From a halophilic archaeon SHRA6 (lineage in GTDB: Archaea > Halobacteriota > Halobacteria > Halobacteriales > Haloferacaceae), in the NCBI GenBank assembly GCA_005239175.1, contig SOPS01000001.1:1-64000 (forward strand): DNA of 64,000 nucleotides, given 5' to 3'. Both the position numbers and the translations under genes were made by a program. The notes below the pieces were generated by a model, which saw only the letters and a list, made by a program, of their open reading frames with translations, was not told the DNA's origin and did no database searches. This document shows, piece after piece, positions 48,533 to 57,440 of the stretch; position 1 is the first letter of the stretch; the number at the start of each line of letters is the position of its first letter.

Positions 48533-49162
48533 ATGAAAAAGGTGTACTCCATCGGAGAGTTCGCAGATGAGATTGGAGTCCACCCAGAAACCGTCAAAAA
48601 GTGGTGCCGAGAAGACCAAATCCAATACTCTCGAACCCCCGGTGGACACCGACGGATTCCGCACTCTGAACTTCAACGACTCACGGGTGAAACCTCACGG
48701 AGAAGCGATAAAGTCGCCATTTACGGGCGTGTTTCAGGCCACGCTCAGAAACAAGATGGCGACCTTGACCGCCAACTCGAATCACTCACCGGATACGCAC
48801 ACGACCACGGGTGGAGTATCGAAAACAAATACTCCGACGTAGGAAGTGGGATCAACGAGAATCGGCGTGGACTGAACAAACTGTTGGATGACGTAGAGGA
48901 CGCCGACTACGGGCGCGTTCTCGTCACCTATCAAGACAGGCTCACTCGATTCGGGTTCTCATACCTCGAACGACTCCTCGACCAGTACGGCGTCGAAATC
49001 ACAGTCATCAACGAAGAAACTGACAAAACAGCACACGAAGAACTCGTTGACGACCTCTTGCAACTCGTCGCCAGTTTTGCAGGCAAACTCTACGGGATGC
49101 GTTCCTCAAAACGCAAGCAGATAGTCGAATCTGTGGAAGCAGAGGTGGACACTGATGAGTAG
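48533..49162 (+). CDS. tnpA: IS607-family serine recombinase
   Basis: This 209-residue transposase has an N-terminal MerR-like helix-turn-helix (about 1-50, MKKVYSIGEFADEIGVHPETVKKW and TPGGHRRIP) followed by a serine-recombinase catalytic domain. The nucleophile Ser about 68 lies in VAIYGRVSG, and the Arg-containing DRQLESL, LVTYQDRLTRFGFSYLERLL segments complete the fold. IS607 TnpA moves the element by a serine-recombinase reaction with relaxed target choice. Stop and tnpB start overlap (ATGAGTAG at 49155-49162). Confidence 0.95.
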   Translation: MKKVYSIGEFADEIGVHPETVKKWCREDQIQYSRTPGGHRRIPHSELQRLTGETSRRSDKVAIYGRVSGHAQKQDGDLDRQLESLTGYAHDHGWSIENKYSDVGSGINENRRGLNKLLDDVEDADYGRVLVTYQDRLTRFGFSYLERLLDQYGVEITVINEETDKTAHEELVDDLLQLVASFAGKLYGMRSSKRKQIVESVEAEVDTDE

Positions 49163-50891
49163 CCATCTTTCACTCCCAATTCACTTACCGTTCGGGGAGC
49201 GAGAGCGACACGACCGATTGGGAATACTTACAAAAGGAGTGGCAAACACGCTTATCGAGCGATACTGGACGCCCGAACACCTCACCGGGATTGATGAATA
49301 CTCGTATCAGGCGTGGAAATACTTTGATGAAACTGAAGCGTTTGCAGACGTTGACCTGTACCTCCCGAGTCGGTACAAGCGTTGCGTGATGCAGAAAGTC
49401 GGAGAAACCTTGCGGAGTCACGCGGACAAACGTGAAGCCTTCCAATCCATTCAGTCCGTTCTTCCAGACCACAAGATTCGGCGTATCCATAGCCGCCGAA
49501 TCAAAGAACAACTGTGGGATTCGGAGGAATACATCACATCGGGCTACGTTGACCTGCTCATCGGACAACTCAACTCGTACTACGACAAACACGGTCGATT
49601 CCCTGAGTCGTACTTCGAGATGCAGGACTGTCCCTCGTACTCGAAAGGCGTGCTTCCGTACTCCGCAGACGACGGCCCGACGAGCGGTCAGGCGGTCAAA
49701 TACGAGTACGACGAAGACACGCAGACACTCACTGTCAAACTCAAAACGCCCGATACGCTCGAACCCGAGGCTCGTGGTGATTGGACGTGGATGAAACACG
49801 AACTTGAGGGATACGAAGCGTTCCACGAACTGCTTGAACACGGCAGTCTCTCCTCACCCTCGTTCAACCCCACACAAACTAAGACAGGGGACGAATACTA
49901 CGAACTTTCGTTCCCCGTTGAAGTTGAACACCAAGAGAAATCAGACGACGTTGAAACCGTCTTGGCAATTGATGGCGGTATCCGCAAAGATGCCACCGCT
50001 GTTGTCGTGAACGAAGATGGAGAGCAAATCTCTGTTCCGTATTTCATACAGAACACTGAGCGTGAACGGATGCAGAACCTTGCTCGTGAACGTAATCACC
50101 TCAACGCCAAACTCGCAGATCTGCGCCGAGAAGGACGTGCCCACACAGACTCTTTCAGACACGTTCAGGCAGAGTATGAGCGGGTGAACAACAGGATTCG
50201 ACACAAGCGAGAGCAGTTAGTTCACGACGTGGCCAACCAGATTCTTGCTCTCGCGCTGGTGTACGACGTTGACGCGATTGTTCACGAAGACCTACGGAGC
50301 CTCAGCCCACCTCGTGGTGAAGGCCAACTCTCGTGGGAACTCTCATCGTGGGCACGTCGAGAAATAGTCTCGAAAATCGAGTACCGGGCTGAAATCGCCG
50401 GATTGCACGTGGAGCGAGTGCGTCCGGGCAACACGTCTCGATCGTGTCCTCGATGCGGTTCCACGGGCCACACCACGAAGTCCCCCGACCACTCGTTTGA
50501 GGTGTGGTGGGGCGGGCATTTCCGCTGTGACAACGCTCGCTGTGGCTTCCAAGCCGACCGTGACTACGTTGGTGCAGTCAACGTGGCGCGTGTGTTCTTC
50601 AGCAGTTCGGCTTCGCTGGAACACGGTTTCACGTCTTCCTATACGGGAGACTTTGAAATCGTGCCAGCTAGCCGTTCCGCTGGCCCGCGTCTCGTGTTCG
50701 GTGAAGCGCCTCTCGCGTTTGCCGGACAGTCGAATGAGGTGACTGCTGGTGGTGGGTCGTGCTTCATAGCGCCCGCTGTCACCCCGATAGAGACGAAAAA
50801 CAACAGCAGTAACAACGATTTAGTGTCAAGCCCAGCGACACACAGTAGTTCTCAATTCGTTAAGAGGACTGCTGTTTCCTGCCGAAAATAG
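49155..50891 (+). CDS. tnpB: TnpB, RNA-guided nuclease of an IS607 element
   Basis: This 578-residue protein has an intact RuvC catalytic triad pattern: AIDGGIRKDA (Asp about 273), IVHEDL (Glu about 378) and ADRDYVGAVNVA (Asp about 470). A zinc ribbon with CPRC and Cys about 458 and 463 lies between them. TnpB proteins of IS607 and IS605 elements cut DNA guided by an RNA read from the element's right end and help retain the element. The last 90 residues beyond the zinc-RuvC part are low complexity, as expected where the coding end overlaps the guide-RNA region. In contrast to the tnpB at 24758, all catalytic acids are present. Confidence 0.93.
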   Translation: MSSHLSLPIHLPFGERERHDRLGILTKGVANTLIERYWTPEHLTGIDEYSYQAWKYFDETEAFADVDLYLPSRYKRCVMQKVGETLRSHADKREAFQSIQSVLPDHKIRRIHSRRIKEQLWDSEEYITSGYVDLLIGQLNSYYDKHGRFPESYFEMQDCPSYSKGVLPYSADDGPTSGQAVKYEYDEDTQTLTVKLKTPDTLEPEARGDWTWMKHELEGYEAFHELLEHGSLSSPSFNPTQTKTGDEYYELSFPVEVEHQEKSDDVETVLAIDGGIRKDATAVVVNEDGEQISVPYFIQNTERERMQNLARERNHLNAKLADLRREGRAHTDSFRHVQAEYERVNNRIRHKREQLVHDVANQILALALVYDVDAIVHEDLRSLSPPRGEGQLSWELSSWARREIVSKIEYRAEIAGLHVERVRPGNTSRSCPRCGSTGHTTKSPDHSFEVWWGGHFRCDNARCGFQADRDYVGAVNVARVFFSSSASLEHGFTSSYTGDFEIVPASRSAGPRLVFGEAPLAFAGQSNEVTAGGGSCFIAPAVTPIETKNNSSNNDLVSSPATHSSSQFVKRTAVSCRK

Positions 50892-53178: not shown

Positions 53179-54243
53179 TCACTCTCGTTCGAACGCATCG
53201 TTCCCGTGTCGATCGATCGCGTCCATGAGTTCCTCCCGCTGACGCTCGAGCTCTGGCGGTGCGTCCGCGTAGGCGTCCGCGAACATCTGTTCGGGGTCGG
53301 GTTTCGCCGACTCTGCGACGTCGATGATTTCAGCGACCTGATCGTCCGCGGCCTGTTCGATCGCGTCGATCGCCTCGGTGTCGAGCCGGCCGGTGTCAAT
53401 GAGGAACGCTTCGAGGCGATCGATCGGATCGCGCTCGCGCCAGCGCGCAACCGCTTCGGAGTCACGATACACTGAAGGATCGTCCGCAGTCGTGTGCGCA
53501 CCATAGCGGTACTCGACCGTTTCGATCAGTGTGGGTCGGAGCCGGCCCTCCGGGGGATCGCGGGCGAGGTCGGCTGCGGCCTTCGTGACGGCATAGGAGG
53601 CCAGCGGGTCCATCCCGTCGACACGGATCCACTCGAAGCCGTACGCTTCGGCTTTCGCTGCGAACGATTCTGAAGCCGTCTGCTCTTCAGTCGGGATCGA
53701 GATCGCCCAGCCGTTGTTGTGACAGACAAACAGCGCGGGCGCGTCGAAGACGCCCGCGAAGTTCAGCGCCTCGTGAAAATCTCCCTCGCTCGTCGATCCG
53801 TCTCCGAAGTGTGCGACAGCGAGTCCGTCATCACCGCGGTAGTCGGCTGCCATCGCCCAGCCGACGGCGTGTGGGATGTGTGCGCCGACGCCGATGTTCA
53901 ACGGAAAGACGTTGGCGTCCGCAAGCGCGGCATTTCCGGACTCATAGCCCATCCAGTACGCCAGGTGCTCCGGCGGAAACTCCCGAGCGAAGAGCACGCC
54001 GTGCTCGCGGTACTGGTAGAACAGCCAATCCTCGTCGGCGAGCGCGTACGTCGATCCGACCTGACTGCCCTCCTGGCCGGCCAACGAGGCATACGTGCCG
54101 ATCCGGCCCTGCCGCTGGAGGCTGATCGCTCGCTCGTCGAACCGACGGGCGGTGCGCATGTCGCGGTAGATCCCGACGAGCTCTTCATCTGTCAGGTCCG
54201 GAACCGTCGCATCGGCAAGCGGGTTGCCGTCAAAATCCAACAC
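53179..54243 (-). CDS. pdhA: Pyruvate/2-oxoacid dehydrogenase E1 component alpha subunit
   Basis: This 354-residue thiamine-diphosphate-dependent E1-alpha decarboxylates pyruvate or a branched 2-oxoacid. The ThDP motif FGDGSTSEGDFHEALNFAGVF...VCHNNGWA (GDG...NN) is intact, preceded by IGVGAHIPHAVGWAMA. The GTG at 54243 (giving LDFDGNPLADATVPDL) is the first usable start in frame. Upstream the frame stays open through a 15-bp repeat coding DDTEA/DDTET, then into the alcohol dehydrogenase, with no ATG, GTG or TTG between 54243 and about 54400. Resemblance to other PdhA N-termini (DGLVRVLDFDG) seems to extend upstream of 54243. The E1-beta gene that normally follows is absent. Confidence 0.85.
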   Translation of the reverse strand: MLDFDGNPLADATVPDLTDEELVGIYRDMRTARRFDERAISLQRQGRIGTYASLAGQEGSQVGSTYALADEDWLFYQYREHGVLFAREFPPEHLAYWMGYESGNAALADANVFPLNIGVGAHIPHAVGWAMAADYRGDDGLAVAHFGDGSTSEGDFHEALNFAGVFDAPALFVCHNNGWAISIPTEEQTASESFAAKAEAYGFEWIRVDGMDPLASYAVTKAAADLARDPPEGRLRPTLIETVEYRYGAHTTADDPSVYRDSEAVARWRERDPIDRLEAFLIDTGRLDTEAIDAIEQAADDQVAEIIDVAESAKPDPEQMFADAYADAPPELERQREELMDAIDRHGNDAFERE

Positions 54244-54293
54244 GCGAACGAGCCCGTCCTCGCCGGTTGCGAAGCTATGAGGGCCGATAGTCG

Positions 54294-54364
54294 CTGTGTC
54301 GTCCGTCTCTGTGTCGTCCGTCTCTGTGTCGTCCGCCTCTGTGTCGTCCGCCTCTGTGTCGTCT
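54294..54364 (-). repeat. Nearly five tandem 15-bp units upstream of pdhA
   Basis: CTGTGTCGTCCGTCT at 54294-54308 and 54309-54323, variants with GCCT at 54324-54338 and 54339-54353, and a partial unit to 54364. The period of 15 equals five codons and is in frame with pdhA on the minus strand (DDTEA/T). It lies just beyond the alcohol dehydrogenase stop (54369-54371). Confidence 0.95.
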
Positions 54365-54368
54365 CGGG

Positions 54369-55409
54369 TCAGGGAGTGATCACCGCTCTTCCTTCGATCT
54401 CGCCGTGTTCTAACTTTTCGGCAACGGTGTTTATTTCCCCGAGCGAGTAGCGACTCGTGTGCAGATCGACGTCCCCGCGATCGACCAGCGCCATCAGCTC
54501 CTGCAGTTCGGTGTACTTGCCCACGAGCGTCCCACGGAAGCCGAATTCGCCGTTGACGAGCGTCTGTGAGGGCTCGTGAATGTGGCCGCCGTAGCCGACA
54601 ATGTGGTGATCACCGCCGCCTGCGGCGATCTGTGGGCCCATTGCCGTCGTGACGTCCGCGCCGACGAAGTCGATGATCTGCTGGGCACCCACACCGTCCG
54701 TGAGCGCTAACAGATCGTCAACGGCGTCGTCTCCGGACGGATCGAGGGTGTGGTCAGCCCCGAGTGATTCAGCGAGTTCGCGGGCCTCGGGTTTGATGTC
54801 GAGTGCGACGATCTCTGCACCGCTCGTCGCCCGGAGACACTGCAACCCGATGTGGCCAAGTCCGCCAACACCGATGACGACCGCGTAGTCGCCCGGATTG
54901 AGCTTTTGTGTGGCCTTTTTGACCGCGTGGTACGCCGTGATTCCCGCGTCGGCGTGCGGCGCGATGTCGGTCGGATCGACGCTATCAGGAAGCGGGATAA
55001 CCGCCCGATCGGACGTGAGCAGGTACTCCGCAAAGCCGCCATCCGTCGTCAATCCTGGGAACGAGAGATTCTCACAGTGCATGTCGTCGCCCAGCCGACA
55101 CGGGCGACACGTTCCACAGGTCATTACCGGATGACAAATTACCTTGTCGCCAACCGAAACCGTCTCCACGTCGTCGCCGATTTCGACAACTTCTCCGGCG
55201 TTTTCGTGTCCGAGCGTCATCGGAAGATCCTGCTCAACGTAGTCGGTCCACATCCCCTCGATGATGTGATTGTCCGTTTGACACCATCCTGCTCCCTCAA
55301 CCTCAACGACGACGTGGTTTCCCGCTTCAGCGCTCGGTCGATCGACCTCGTCGATCTCGAGCCCGTTCGCCATGTCGTGTGTGTACTCGTGCAATCGTGC
55401 TGCTTGCAT
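54369..55409 (-). CDS. Zinc-dependent alcohol dehydrogenase
   Basis: This 346-residue medium-chain dehydrogenase begins MQAARLHEYTHDMANGLEIDEVDRP. GWCQTDNHIIEGMW holds the catalytic zinc Cys, and LPMTLGHENAGEV carries the His-Glu pair. CGTCRPCRLGDDMHC supplies the structural zinc cysteines. VVIGVGGLGHIGLQC is the NAD(P)-binding GxGGxG motif. The start MQAARLHEY is typical; AT-rich upstream codons to 55571 are promoter. It is divergent from the amidohydrolase/MIP18 operon across a symmetric AT-rich promoter. This grouping recalls the adh gene of propane monooxygenase operons. Confidence 0.92.
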   Translation of the reverse strand: MQAARLHEYTHDMANGLEIDEVDRPSAEAGNHVVVEVEGAGWCQTDNHIIEGMWTDYVEQDLPMTLGHENAGEVVEIGDDVETVSVGDKVICHPVMTCGTCRPCRLGDDMHCENLSFPGLTTDGGFAEYLLTSDRAVIPLPDSVDPTDIAPHADAGITAYHAVKKATQKLNPGDYAVVIGVGGLGHIGLQCLRATSGAEIVALDIKPEARELAESLGADHTLDPSGDDAVDDLLALTDGVGAQQIIDFVGADVTTAMGPQIAAGGGDHHIVGYGGHIHEPSQTLVNGEFGFRGTLVGKYTELQELMALVDRGDVDLHTSRYSLGEINTVAEKLEHGEIEGRAVITP

Positions 55410-55435
55410 ATCCGTATCGTACTCGGGAGAAAACA

Positions 55436-55442
55436 TACATAA
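55436..55442 (-). promoter_or_regulatory. TATA element of the alcohol dehydrogenase
   Basis: On the minus strand TTTATG lies about 27-33 bases upstream of the ATG at 55409, giving a leaderless promoter. Confidence 0.5.
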
Positions 55443-55467
55443 ACGTTTGTTATAAACTAACATAGAC

Positions 55468-55493
55468 CAGTTGTTAACTGTAATATCGCAGTT
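55468..55493. promoter_or_regulatory. Candidate operator between alcohol dehydrogenase and amidohydrolase
   Basis: Half-sites CAGTT (55468-55472), AACTG (55476-55480) and CAGTT (55489-55493) give two overlapping dyads: CAGTT-GTT-AACTG and TAACTG-N8-CAGTTA. The position between both promoters suits a shared regulator. Confidence 0.55.
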
Positions 55494-55506
55494 ATCCACC
55501 AACGAA

Positions 55507-55517
55507 CATATATAATT
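55507..55517 (+). promoter_or_regulatory. TATA-like element of the amidohydrolase operon
   Basis: An AT-rich CATATATAATT lies about 50 bp upstream of the ATG at 55564, consistent with a short 5' leader. Confidence 0.4.
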
Positions 55518-55563
55518 ATTTTCAATGAATGTTATGTAGAGAGAGTACTGAGACACCACTACA

Positions 55564-56631
55564 ATGTTCACCTACGAAGGCGAGGACATCTTTGTCATTG
55601 ACGGGCACATCCACATGTGGGATGCGAGCGACGAGAACATCAAAACAGAGGGCGGTCGGCAGTTCATCGACTGTTTTTACGACTACCATACCGGATTCAC
55701 CCCCGAAGAGCGACAGTGGGACTACGAGGAGTACCAAAGCTACGGGCCCGATCGGCTCGCAGACGACTTCTTCACGAACGGCGTCGTCGACATGGGAATC
55801 TTCCAGCCAACGCACCTGCGAGATTTCTACCACGACGGGTTCAACACGTTCGAGCGCAACGGCCGGATGGTCGATCGATACCCAGAGCGCTTCATCGTCA
55901 ACGGCCGGTTCGACCCGCGTGAGGGCGAAGCTGGCCACGAGGAACTCGAACGACAAAAAGAAGAACGCGACATTCAGGGCGTGAAGGTTTACACCGCCGA
56001 GTGGATGGGCGACTCGAAGGGCTGGCGACTCGACTCCGACGAGTCCTTCGAGTTCCTCGAACACTGTGCAGATCTCGGGATCAACAACATCCACGCGCAC
56101 AAGGGCCCGACGATCCGACCGCTCAACAAGGACGCCTTCGATGTTGGTGACGTCGATCTTGCCGCGTCAAGCTTCCCGGATATGAACTTCATCGTCGAGC
56201 ACGTCGGGCTGCCGCGGCTGGACGACTTCTGTTGGATTGCCGCCCAGGAGCCGAACGTCTACGGCGGGCTCGCGGTCGCCGCGCCGCTTGCAGTCCACCG
56301 CCAGAAAAAGTTCGGCGAAATCATGGGCGAACTGCTGTTCTGGCTGGGTGAAGACCGACTACTATTCGGCAGTGACTACGCGCTGTGGAACCCAGACTGG
56401 TTGGTCGAGACGTTCCTCGAATCCGAACTGACCCCCGAGCAGCGCGACGAGTACGGCGTCGAGTTCGGTCTCGAGACGAAAAAGAAGATTCTCGGGGAAA
56501 ATGCCGCGGAACTATACGACATCGACATTGAGGAGAAGAAGCGACAGTTCCAGTCCGACGACGTCACCCAGGAATACGGCCTTGAAGGGATGTACGGTTC
56601 GAATACCGACAGCGCGGTTGCCGACGACTAA
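55564..56631 (+). CDS. Amidohydrolase-2 family protein (PF04909-like)
   Basis: This 355-residue TIM-barrel metal hydrolase begins MFTYEGEDIFVIDGHIHMWDASDEN; the DGHIHMW motif gives the first His-x-His ligands. Further conserved positions are NNIHAHKGPTIRP, MNFIVEHVGLPRLDDF and DRLLFGSDYALWNP with the Asp ligand. It resembles the amidohydrolase encoded beside bacterial soluble diiron propane monooxygenases, where its job is poorly understood (maturation or accessory). Its stop overlaps the start of the MIP18-like gene by one base (TAATG at 56629-56633), so the two are coupled. Confidence 0.88.
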   Translation: MFTYEGEDIFVIDGHIHMWDASDENIKTEGGRQFIDCFYDYHTGFTPEERQWDYEEYQSYGPDRLADDFFTNGVVDMGIFQPTHLRDFYHDGFNTFERNGRMVDRYPERFIVNGRFDPREGEAGHEELERQKEERDIQGVKVYTAEWMGDSKGWRLDSDESFEFLEHCADLGINNIHAHKGPTIRPLNKDAFDVGDVDLAASSFPDMNFIVEHVGLPRLDDFCWIAAQEPNVYGGLAVAAPLAVHRQKKFGEIMGELLFWLGEDRLLFGSDYALWNPDWLVETFLESELTPEQRDEYGVEFGLETKKKILGENAAELYDIDIEEKKRQFQSDDVTQEYGLEGMYGSNTDSAVADD

Positions 56632-57440
56632 TGTCCCGATCGGCCGATAGATCGATCGACGGCTCCGCCAATGAGTCCGTCGTCGATCATGAGACGATAC
56701 GGGACGCGATCCGACCGGTGCTCGACCCCGAACTCGACGAGTCGATCGTCGACCTCGGCTACATCGACGAGATTGACATTACGGCGAACGAGGCGTCAGA
56801 GGTCGCCGTCACAGTTCGGTTTACGCTTCCGACGGCGTGGTGCTCACCAGCGTTCGCCTGGATGATGGCTGACGGCGCGAAGGAGGCGGCCGAGTCAGTA
56901 TCAGGGGTTACACACGCTGAGATAGAACTCCGAGACCACATGCACGAAACCGAGATCAATACCGGGATCAACGAGGGACGATCGTTCGCCGAATCGTTTC
57001 CGGACGCCGACGGCGGGCTCGAATCGGTTCGGGCAACATTGGACCACAAGGCCCGGTTGGCCCGACAACACGACGCGATCGAGGCACTCACCGAAGCCGG
57101 CTTGTCGCCCACACAGCTCGTTGCACTGTCAGAGAGTGATCTCGATCGCACAGCAGACGGCGGGCAGTATCACATCCTGCTCGGGGAGGGATCGTTCGGC
57201 GTCACAGTCGACGCCGAGCCGATCGACGAGTACCTCCAGATGGCCGCCGAAGACGGCTGTCTCGACGGCCCGGAAGAACCGATGTTCCGAACGCCGGAGG
57301 GCGATATAATCCCCGAGGAGATGTTCGACATGGTCCAACACCGTGCGCGATCGGCGAAAGTGAACTTGAACGGACAGGGAACTGTGTGTGAGGCGCTCAA
57401 CGAGTCGCGACGGGCGGCGTTAGGACGATCAGACGACTAG
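56631..57440 (+). CDS. MIP18/DUF59-type metal-sulfur assembly protein, extended
   Basis: This is a 269-residue protein. Residues about 18-110 form a MIP18/DUF59 domain (DAIRPVLDPELDESIVDLGYIDEI; VTVRFTLPTAWCSPAFAWMMADGAKEA with the family Cys). The remaining 150 residues are an extension of unknown fold. DUF59 proteins help assemble Fe-S or other metal centres. It is translationally coupled to the amidohydrolase at the same locus as the alcohol dehydrogenase. This arrangement (alcohol dehydrogenase, amidohydrolase, DUF59) matches accessory genes of bacterial propane monooxygenase operons. Confidence 0.85.
   Translation: MSRSADRSIDGSANESVVDHETIRDAIRPVLDPELDESIVDLGYIDEIDITANEASEVAVTVRFTLPTAWCSPAFAWMMADGAKEAAESVSGVTHAEIELRDHMHETEINTGINEGRSFAESFPDADGGLESVRATLDHKARLARQHDAIEALTEAGLSPTQLVALSESDLDRTADGGQYHILLGEGSFGVTVDAEPIDEYLQMAAEDGCLDGPEEPMFRTPEGDIIPEEMFDMVQHRARSAKVNLNGQGTVCEALNESRRAALGRSDD

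Follow-up and report, generated by a model that had tools for sequence, protein, structure and literature searches.

The locus and its genes

Positions 54369 to 57440 of the 64,000-nucleotide stretch analysed here (the window; contig SOPS01000001.1, from the halophilic archaeon SHRA6) hold three genes that resemble the accessory genes of bacterial propane monooxygenase (Prm) operons. All three open reading frames (ORFs) were confirmed, and a search with the Pfam and NCBIfam models established their families, with no equivalog model satisfied by any of them. The minus strand encodes a 346-amino-acid Zn-dependent medium-chain alcohol dehydrogenase (ADH, 54369–55409; ADH_N 1.2e-27, ADH_zinc_N 8e-21). 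On the plus strand are a 355-amino-acid TIM-barrel protein of the Amidohydrolase-2 family PF04909 (AMD, 55564–56631; Amidohydro_2 4.9e-43) and a 269-amino-acid two-domain DUF59/MIP18 protein (56631–57440; FeS_assembly_P 4.8e-12), which overlap by one base in a TAATG (56629–56633). The open frame of the ADH extends to 55571, and since its homologues begin at the methionine at residue 55 (MQAARLHEY), the start is probably at 55409. This leaves a divergent gap of 154 bp, an AT-rich intergenic and promoter region (55410–55563), and a divergent layout with a short gap is also seen in related loci.

Distribution among the Halobacteria

AMD orthologues (at least 57% identity) are present in 123 of 392 Halobacteria, about a third, and the long form of DUF59 occurs in all of these 123 genomes and in no others. 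The ADH adjoins the AMD-DUF59 pair in 34 of the 39 haloarchaeal loci read; in 29 of these 34 it is divergent, with a gap mostly of 95–241 bp. Such a recurrence of the grouping across haloarchaea means that the arrangement is not due to chance, and together with the ORFs and Pfam matches it confirmed the earlier note's description of a Zn alcohol dehydrogenase divergent from a coupled amidohydrolase and DUF59 pair.

The short divergent gaps contain a half-site, GTGGTA/TACCAC, in 11 of 27 cases, with about 2.8 expected and a maximum of 8 in 500 simulations, a count that applies to a motif picked after inspection and to regions whose relatedness was not controlled. The half-site is often part of a near-palindrome beside AMD and is possibly an operator, although it is not obvious in the window's own gap.

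The earlier note had remarked that the monooxygenase is missing from the window, and this holds genome-wide: the 3.36 Mb source genome, which is 99.3% complete, has no match to PF02332 and none to a PrmA query. Bacterial GroEL was not found in this genome either, the only three weakly matching frames (553–577 amino acids, 28–34% identity) being read as thermosome subunits, and no GroEL is present at the module loci. PF02332 occurs in none of the 123 module-bearing Halobacteria and in 4 of the 269 without the module, a contrast that is statistically weak (P = 0.31), so that the argument rests on the 123 module genomes without PF02332. The search gave no match in 14 standard controls, and the four carriers served as its positive control.

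These carriers (G064, G216, G094 and G349; loci L089–L092) have toluene/phenol-type soluble diiron monooxygenase operons with a Rieske ferredoxin, an MmoB protein and a YHS-domain alpha subunit, and in L089 the genes of the beta and alpha subunits are separated by one that resembles a transposase. They were considered as the module's missing partner and rejected, being toluene-type and having neither AMD nor DUF59, nor the ADH, within the 12–20 kb that were read.

Bacterial relatives and the propane monooxygenase operons

Bacterial AMDs with 48–58% identity to the haloarchaeal protein were found by tblastn against plasmids, and those at 53–58% sit in full prmABCD-AMD-DUF59-GroEL-ADH operons, which bore out the homology to the Prm/Mim accessory set that had been proposed. 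Five annotated full operons, from Aminobacter, Caballeronia, Ponticoccus, Paracoccus and Bradyrhizobium, run in the order hydroxylase alpha, reductase, hydroxylase beta, MmoB protein, AMD, DUF59 and GroEL, with an ADH nearby, and Rhodococcus JS3073 has the same gene set. The group V/VI operons, including prm of Gordonia TY-5, mim of Mycolicibacterium and those of Caballeronia, Aminobacter, Paracoccus and Bradyrhizobium, share with the haloarchaeal module a homologous AMD (53–58%), a two-domain DUF59, a homologous ADH (45–50%) and the AMD-DUF59 gene order. In contrast to these operons, the haloarchaeal module is without hydroxylase alpha and beta, reductase, coupling protein and GroEL, its ADH is divergent, and it forms a phylogenetic clade of its own. 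The window's ADH belongs with the ADHs of the bacterial modules, to which it is 44–50% identical, as compared with 33% at most for the paralogues in its own genome.

In the literature, the genes of interest in Prm operons go by the names "amidohydrolase", "protein of unknown function" or "iron-sulfur cluster assembly protein" (PMC6849523, PMC9213486). The mim AMD and Adh1 of an actinobacterium were abundant along with Mim during growth on acetone or 2-hydroxyisobutyrate, with no function assigned to the AMD (PMC7176365), and functional expression of Mim requires GroEL (Furuya 2013, as cited in PMC6849523).

A scan of genome contigs yielded 80 loci, the best 80 matches to a Thermomicrobium AMD query. 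Among bacterial loci with full flanks, plasmid loci included, DUF59 was present at all 59 with Prm subunits and all 17 without; GroEL was found at every one of the former and none of the latter, and the ADH at 57 and nine, respectively. The GroEL distribution shows that this chaperonin goes with the hydroxylase and that AMD-DUF59, often with the ADH, is independent of it. The Prm-free loci belong to Thermomicrobium, Thermoflexus, Poribacteria, Thermogemmatispora, Chloroflexus, Bacillota and some Alphaproteobacteria, examples being the IclR-DUF59-AMD-ADH locus of Thermomicrobium and those of Peribacillus and Rhizobium N324. As in haloarchaea, the modules of Thermomicrobium roseum, Thermoflexus, Poribacteria, Thermogemmatispora, Chloroflexus and Bacillaceae combine ADH, AMD and DUF59 with no Prm or GroEL nearby; they differ in being codirectional (DUF59-AMD-ADH or AMD-DUF59-ADH), and their AMDs are 50–58% identical. 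No consistent extra partner gene was found at the Prm-free bacterial loci, where the neighbours vary and include DJ-1, gloA, an Opp-type ABC system with DUF1028, and Met genes. A link to methylglyoxal or acetol, considered on account of gloA and DJ-1, was neither adopted nor dismissed, as the cases are too few.

One prm locus, on the Rhodococcus aetherivorans BW2 plasmid NZ_CP154794.1 (L109, 6579–8937), has an apparent internal deletion: the hydroxylase alpha frame ends near an incomplete Zn-dehydrogenase, there is no reductase, beta or coupling gene, and AMD, DUF59, ADH and GroEL are retained.

Phylogeny of the module

The haloarchaeal AMDs form a single clade (support 100/100) apart from all bacterial AMDs, and the DUF59 and ADH trees each contain one haloarchaeal clade as well. 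Over 33 loci the identities of the module proteins correlate (Spearman 0.64 for AMD and DUF59, 0.67 for AMD and ADH, with relatedness not controlled). The Prm-free AMDs of Chloroflexota, Poribacteria and Bacillota lie outside both Prm-rich clades. A few others, from Acidiphilium, fall inside them, which means that losses of Prm happen too. Constraining the haloarchaea to group with exactly the Prm-linked sequences was rejected by the approximately unbiased (AU) test (p 0.0009), a constraint that also splits mixed bacterial clades.

The proteins and their predicted activities

The AMD has candidate metal ligands in H15, H17, H179, H213 and D271; across 46 aligned relatives all are invariant save H17, which is nearly so, and the protein both matches the PF04909 family profile and has the HxH/His/His/Asp layout of the mononuclear enzymes. 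No close sequence relative was found in the PDB (the best by profile is BB4693, 3irs, E 0.003). The AlphaFold model of the AMD, with a predicted local distance difference test (pLDDT) score of 88.9, matched BB4693, gamma-resorcylate and 5-carboxyvanillate decarboxylases, ACMSD and LigJ in Foldseek and, lower down, SfbO; the decarboxylases, ACMSD and LigJ are mononuclear PF04909 enzymes that have the fold and ligand layout in common with the AMD. In the AMDs of three loci, Prm-linked and Prm-free alike (L113, L120 and L195), the second histidine of the DxHxH motif is replaced by alanine (DSHVA, DAHVA or DSHIA), and part of the family may therefore have a degenerate metal site.

The N-terminal domain of the DUF59 protein (residues ~18–101) is PF01883, with the family's DPE motif (D32, P33, E34) invariant along with C71. 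The C-terminal domain (~125–263) has no assigned fold. An alignment of 47 sequences shows two invariant cysteines, C71 in the N-terminal domain and C253 in the C-terminal one. Foldseek matches of the AlphaFold model (pLDDT 91.6) to DUF59 structures span the N-terminal domain only, and no credible PDB match to the C-terminal domain was returned. For the ADH, the closest PDB entry is the Aeropyrum pernix enzyme 1h2b (E=2.6e-100), and a further match, to the secondary alcohol dehydrogenase ADH-A of Rhodococcus ruber (2xaa, E=6e-56), agrees with its placement by homology in the secondary-alcohol type of medium-chain Zn-ADHs.

Distant paralogues and a catabolic cluster

Haloarchaea also encode distant AMDs, here called amd2 and amd3, which are 28–33% identical to that of the window and whose loci were chosen by their match to the AMD query (P0002) regardless of neighbours. 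In all 22 loci read, a DUF59 gene lies directly downstream, which makes AMD-DUF59 a general pair. The source genome itself holds a second such pair, amd3-duf3 (C2:947722-948699, L238). Like the window-type module, the amd2 and amd3 pairs (e.g., those of Natrinema salinisoli, L201, Haloarcula, L203, and the source genome) consist of a PF04909 protein followed by DUF59 and lie mostly in catabolic clusters with dehydrogenases; unlike it, they have a short DUF59 without the C-terminal domain, and a short-chain dehydrogenase/reductase (SDR), an aldehyde dehydrogenase or an aldehyde ferredoxin oxidoreductase replaces the Zn-ADH. In amd2 and amd3, D13, H17, K141, Y143, H179, K180 and H213 are kept, with valine at the position of H15 and glycine at that of D271, and the partnership with DUF59 is thus independent of the canonical mononuclear site.

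Two genomes from different families (G080 and G227) have both types of pair in one cluster of ~25 kb, which comprises a thiolase with an OB-fold protein, an acyl-CoA ligase, amd3-duf3, an SDR, an aldehyde ferredoxin oxidoreductase or aldehyde dehydrogenase, a sugar-type ABC importer, a further SDR, BKACE, two IclR regulators and the window-type AMD-DUF59-ADH. In the source genome the amd3 half of this cluster is on another contig than the window, with a thiolase, OB-fold protein, acyl-CoA ligase, SDR, aldehyde ferredoxin oxidoreductase and ABC importer. This context would place the module in the catabolism of a small imported compound that ends in acyl- or acetyl-CoA. Carboxylation of acetone by the AMD, an idea taken from the thiolase, CoA ligase and BKACE of the cluster, was not adopted, as ATP-independent acetone carboxylation is unfavourable.

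A probable stand-alone catabolic module

The locus is probably a complete, stand-alone three-gene module for the catabolism of a small alcohol or ketone and no remnant of a Prm operon. The ADH would interconvert a small alcohol with the corresponding ketone or aldehyde, and the AMD, with its mononuclear-site residues, would act on the same metabolite or on one close to it in the pathway, by a non-redox reaction such as decarboxylation, hydration or hydrolysis. Its dedicated partner would be the two-domain DUF59 protein, either as a maturation or metal-delivery factor or as a subunit. The same module, joined to a diiron hydroxylase and GroEL in the Prm operons of proteobacteria and actinobacteria, would handle the alcohol and ketone products of alkane oxidation, and in haloarchaea, some Chloroflexota, Poribacteria and Bacillota it would operate without hydroxylase and GroEL. 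Its presence, conservation and pairing, its independence from PF02332, GroEL and PaaA/PaaC, and its homology to the Prm accessory set are matters of observation; the catabolic role, the non-redox reaction and the partnership within the pair are what we infer from sequence and gene context.

Several findings weigh against this interpretation. The bacterial sample, being the best 80 matches to one Thermomicrobium query, is biased toward that query, and the Prm-free status of bacteria was judged from the neighbourhood of the locus. The ADH is not next to AMD-DUF59 in 5 of 39 haloarchaeal and 8 of 17 Prm-free bacterial loci, which makes it a looser member of the module. A placement of the haloarchaeal AMDs as sister to the actinobacterial or proteobacterial Prm clade was not rejected (AU p 0.10 and 0.064), so that transfer may have gone in either direction; of the earlier suggestion that archaea reused the module, the independent module stands. 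Lastly, as amd2 and amd3 keep DUF59 after losing H15 and D271, DUF59 cannot simply load the canonical site, and "mononuclear hydrolase" may not fit the whole AMD family.

A bolder version, which we regard as conceivable though rather doubtful, is that AMD and DUF59 make up an unrecognised two-component class of metalloenzyme, in which a PF04909 barrel is always partnered by DUF59. The class would comprise three or more divergent subfamilies, of which two have lost the canonical metal site, and would perform a new step of alcohol or ketone catabolism that was later built into Prm operons.

Alternative explanations

Rather than an enzyme with its partner, AMD-DUF59 could be a chaperone or metal-delivery unit whose client is a dehydrogenase of the cluster, be it the ADH or a different one. 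The two proteins always travel as a pair, the pairs of amd2 and amd3 keep DUF59 without the canonical ligands, and in all three subfamilies many loci have a dehydrogenase for a neighbour, of the ADH, SDR, aldehyde dehydrogenase or aldehyde ferredoxin oxidoreductase kind. Against this, there is no common client, as the ADH accompanies one subfamily and the other dehydrogenases the rest, with several loci lacking an ADH, and no Zn-ADH is known to require a dedicated Fe-S-type factor. We hold this explanation to be unlikely.

Still less probable is that the set is a remnant or satellite of a Prm system and, as the earlier note proposed, serves a diiron oxygenase from elsewhere in the genome, by maturing or supporting it. 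Homology to the Prm accessory genes speaks for it, as does the presence in the source genome of a diiron oxygenase, the phenylacetyl-CoA epoxidase PaaA/PaaC, since PaaABCE is accompanied by DUF59 proteins (PaaD). The source genome's PaaA, however, already adjoins a PaaD of its own (L239), and the module's DUF59 scores 36.7 bits against the haloarchaeal PaaD model (NF041868, paad_haloarch), short of that model's cut-off of 180. PaaA/PaaC occurs in 73 of 123 module genomes and 142 of 269 others, which is no association (P = 0.23), and 50 of the 123 lack both PF05138 and PF02332. A PrmA-type hydroxylase elsewhere in the source genome was rejected for want of any PF02332 or PrmA match, and bacterial GroEL is absent too. 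The earlier note had named as evidence against its proposal the lack of a diiron hydroxylase in genomes with the locus and an AMD from outside the Prm group, and this is largely what was found, as module genomes are without that hydroxylase family and the AMD clade lies outside the Prm-linked clades.

An equally improbable reading makes the AMD itself an oxygenase, an amidohydrolase-related dinuclear oxygenase (ARO) akin to PtmU3, AibH2 or SfbO, metallated with the aid of DUF59 and hydroxylating a substrate whose product the ADH would oxidise. The idea was prompted by the Foldseek match to SfbO (8sm6, E 4.4e-7), an amidohydrolase-fold dinuclear oxygenase; AROs share the AMD's Pfam family and fold, AROs in catabolic operons and AibH2-like proteins in haloarchaea have been described (PMC10401708, PMC10811679), and an alcohol dehydrogenase beside a hydroxylase is plausible. 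However, SfbO ranked below many mononuclear decarboxylases, and the ARO second-metal residues are absent from the AMD. The ARO ligand set is that of AibH2 (D25, H27, H211, E265, D337, H340; PMC10401708), and in the 46 relatives of the AMD no histidine follows three residues after D271, position 274 being isoleucine or leucine and I274 nearly invariant. The strand-6 position is an invariant H213 in place of the ARO glutamate, an equivalence inferred by position without direct alignment to AibH2. No Rieske ferredoxin was recognised on reading the neighbouring ORFs, of which a part was scanned. With the ligand signature failing, the oxygenase assignment was rejected.

Other features of the window

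Just beyond the end of the ADH gene is a 15-bp tandem repeat of 4.9 copies (54290–54363). Read on the minus strand, it gives an in-frame stretch rich in DDTEA/DDTET that lies upstream of position 54243, the start listed for an E1 dehydrogenase alpha gene, so that the N-terminus of this protein may consist of an acidic repeat. Farther away, an IS607-type element (48533–50891) consists of a MerR/resolvase serine recombinase followed by TnpB (Cas12f1-like TNB domain, OrfB_IS605).

Significance

The genes of this locus are of known kinds, and it is their independent arrangement that has been little noticed. Two genes of the well-known propane and acetone monooxygenase operons, those for AMD and DUF59, have no assigned role. 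As the unit is found in about a third of haloarchaea without propane monooxygenase, these helper genes do something of their own, and the strict pairing in 123 haloarchaea without the hydroxylase, together with the distant AMD-DUF59 pairs, separates them from hydroxylase maturation. Such loci are no sign of alkane oxidation, and a survey that inferred archaeal propane oxidation from AMD, DUF59 and ADH would go wrong. Were the two-component AMD-DUF59 class to prove true, it would account for the unassigned "amidohydrolase" and "hypothetical" or "iron-sulfur assembly" genes of propane monooxygenase clusters. Their independent occurrence makes the function of the helper genes testable, and the Prm-free, genetically tractable haloarchaea offer a cleaner background in which to find it.

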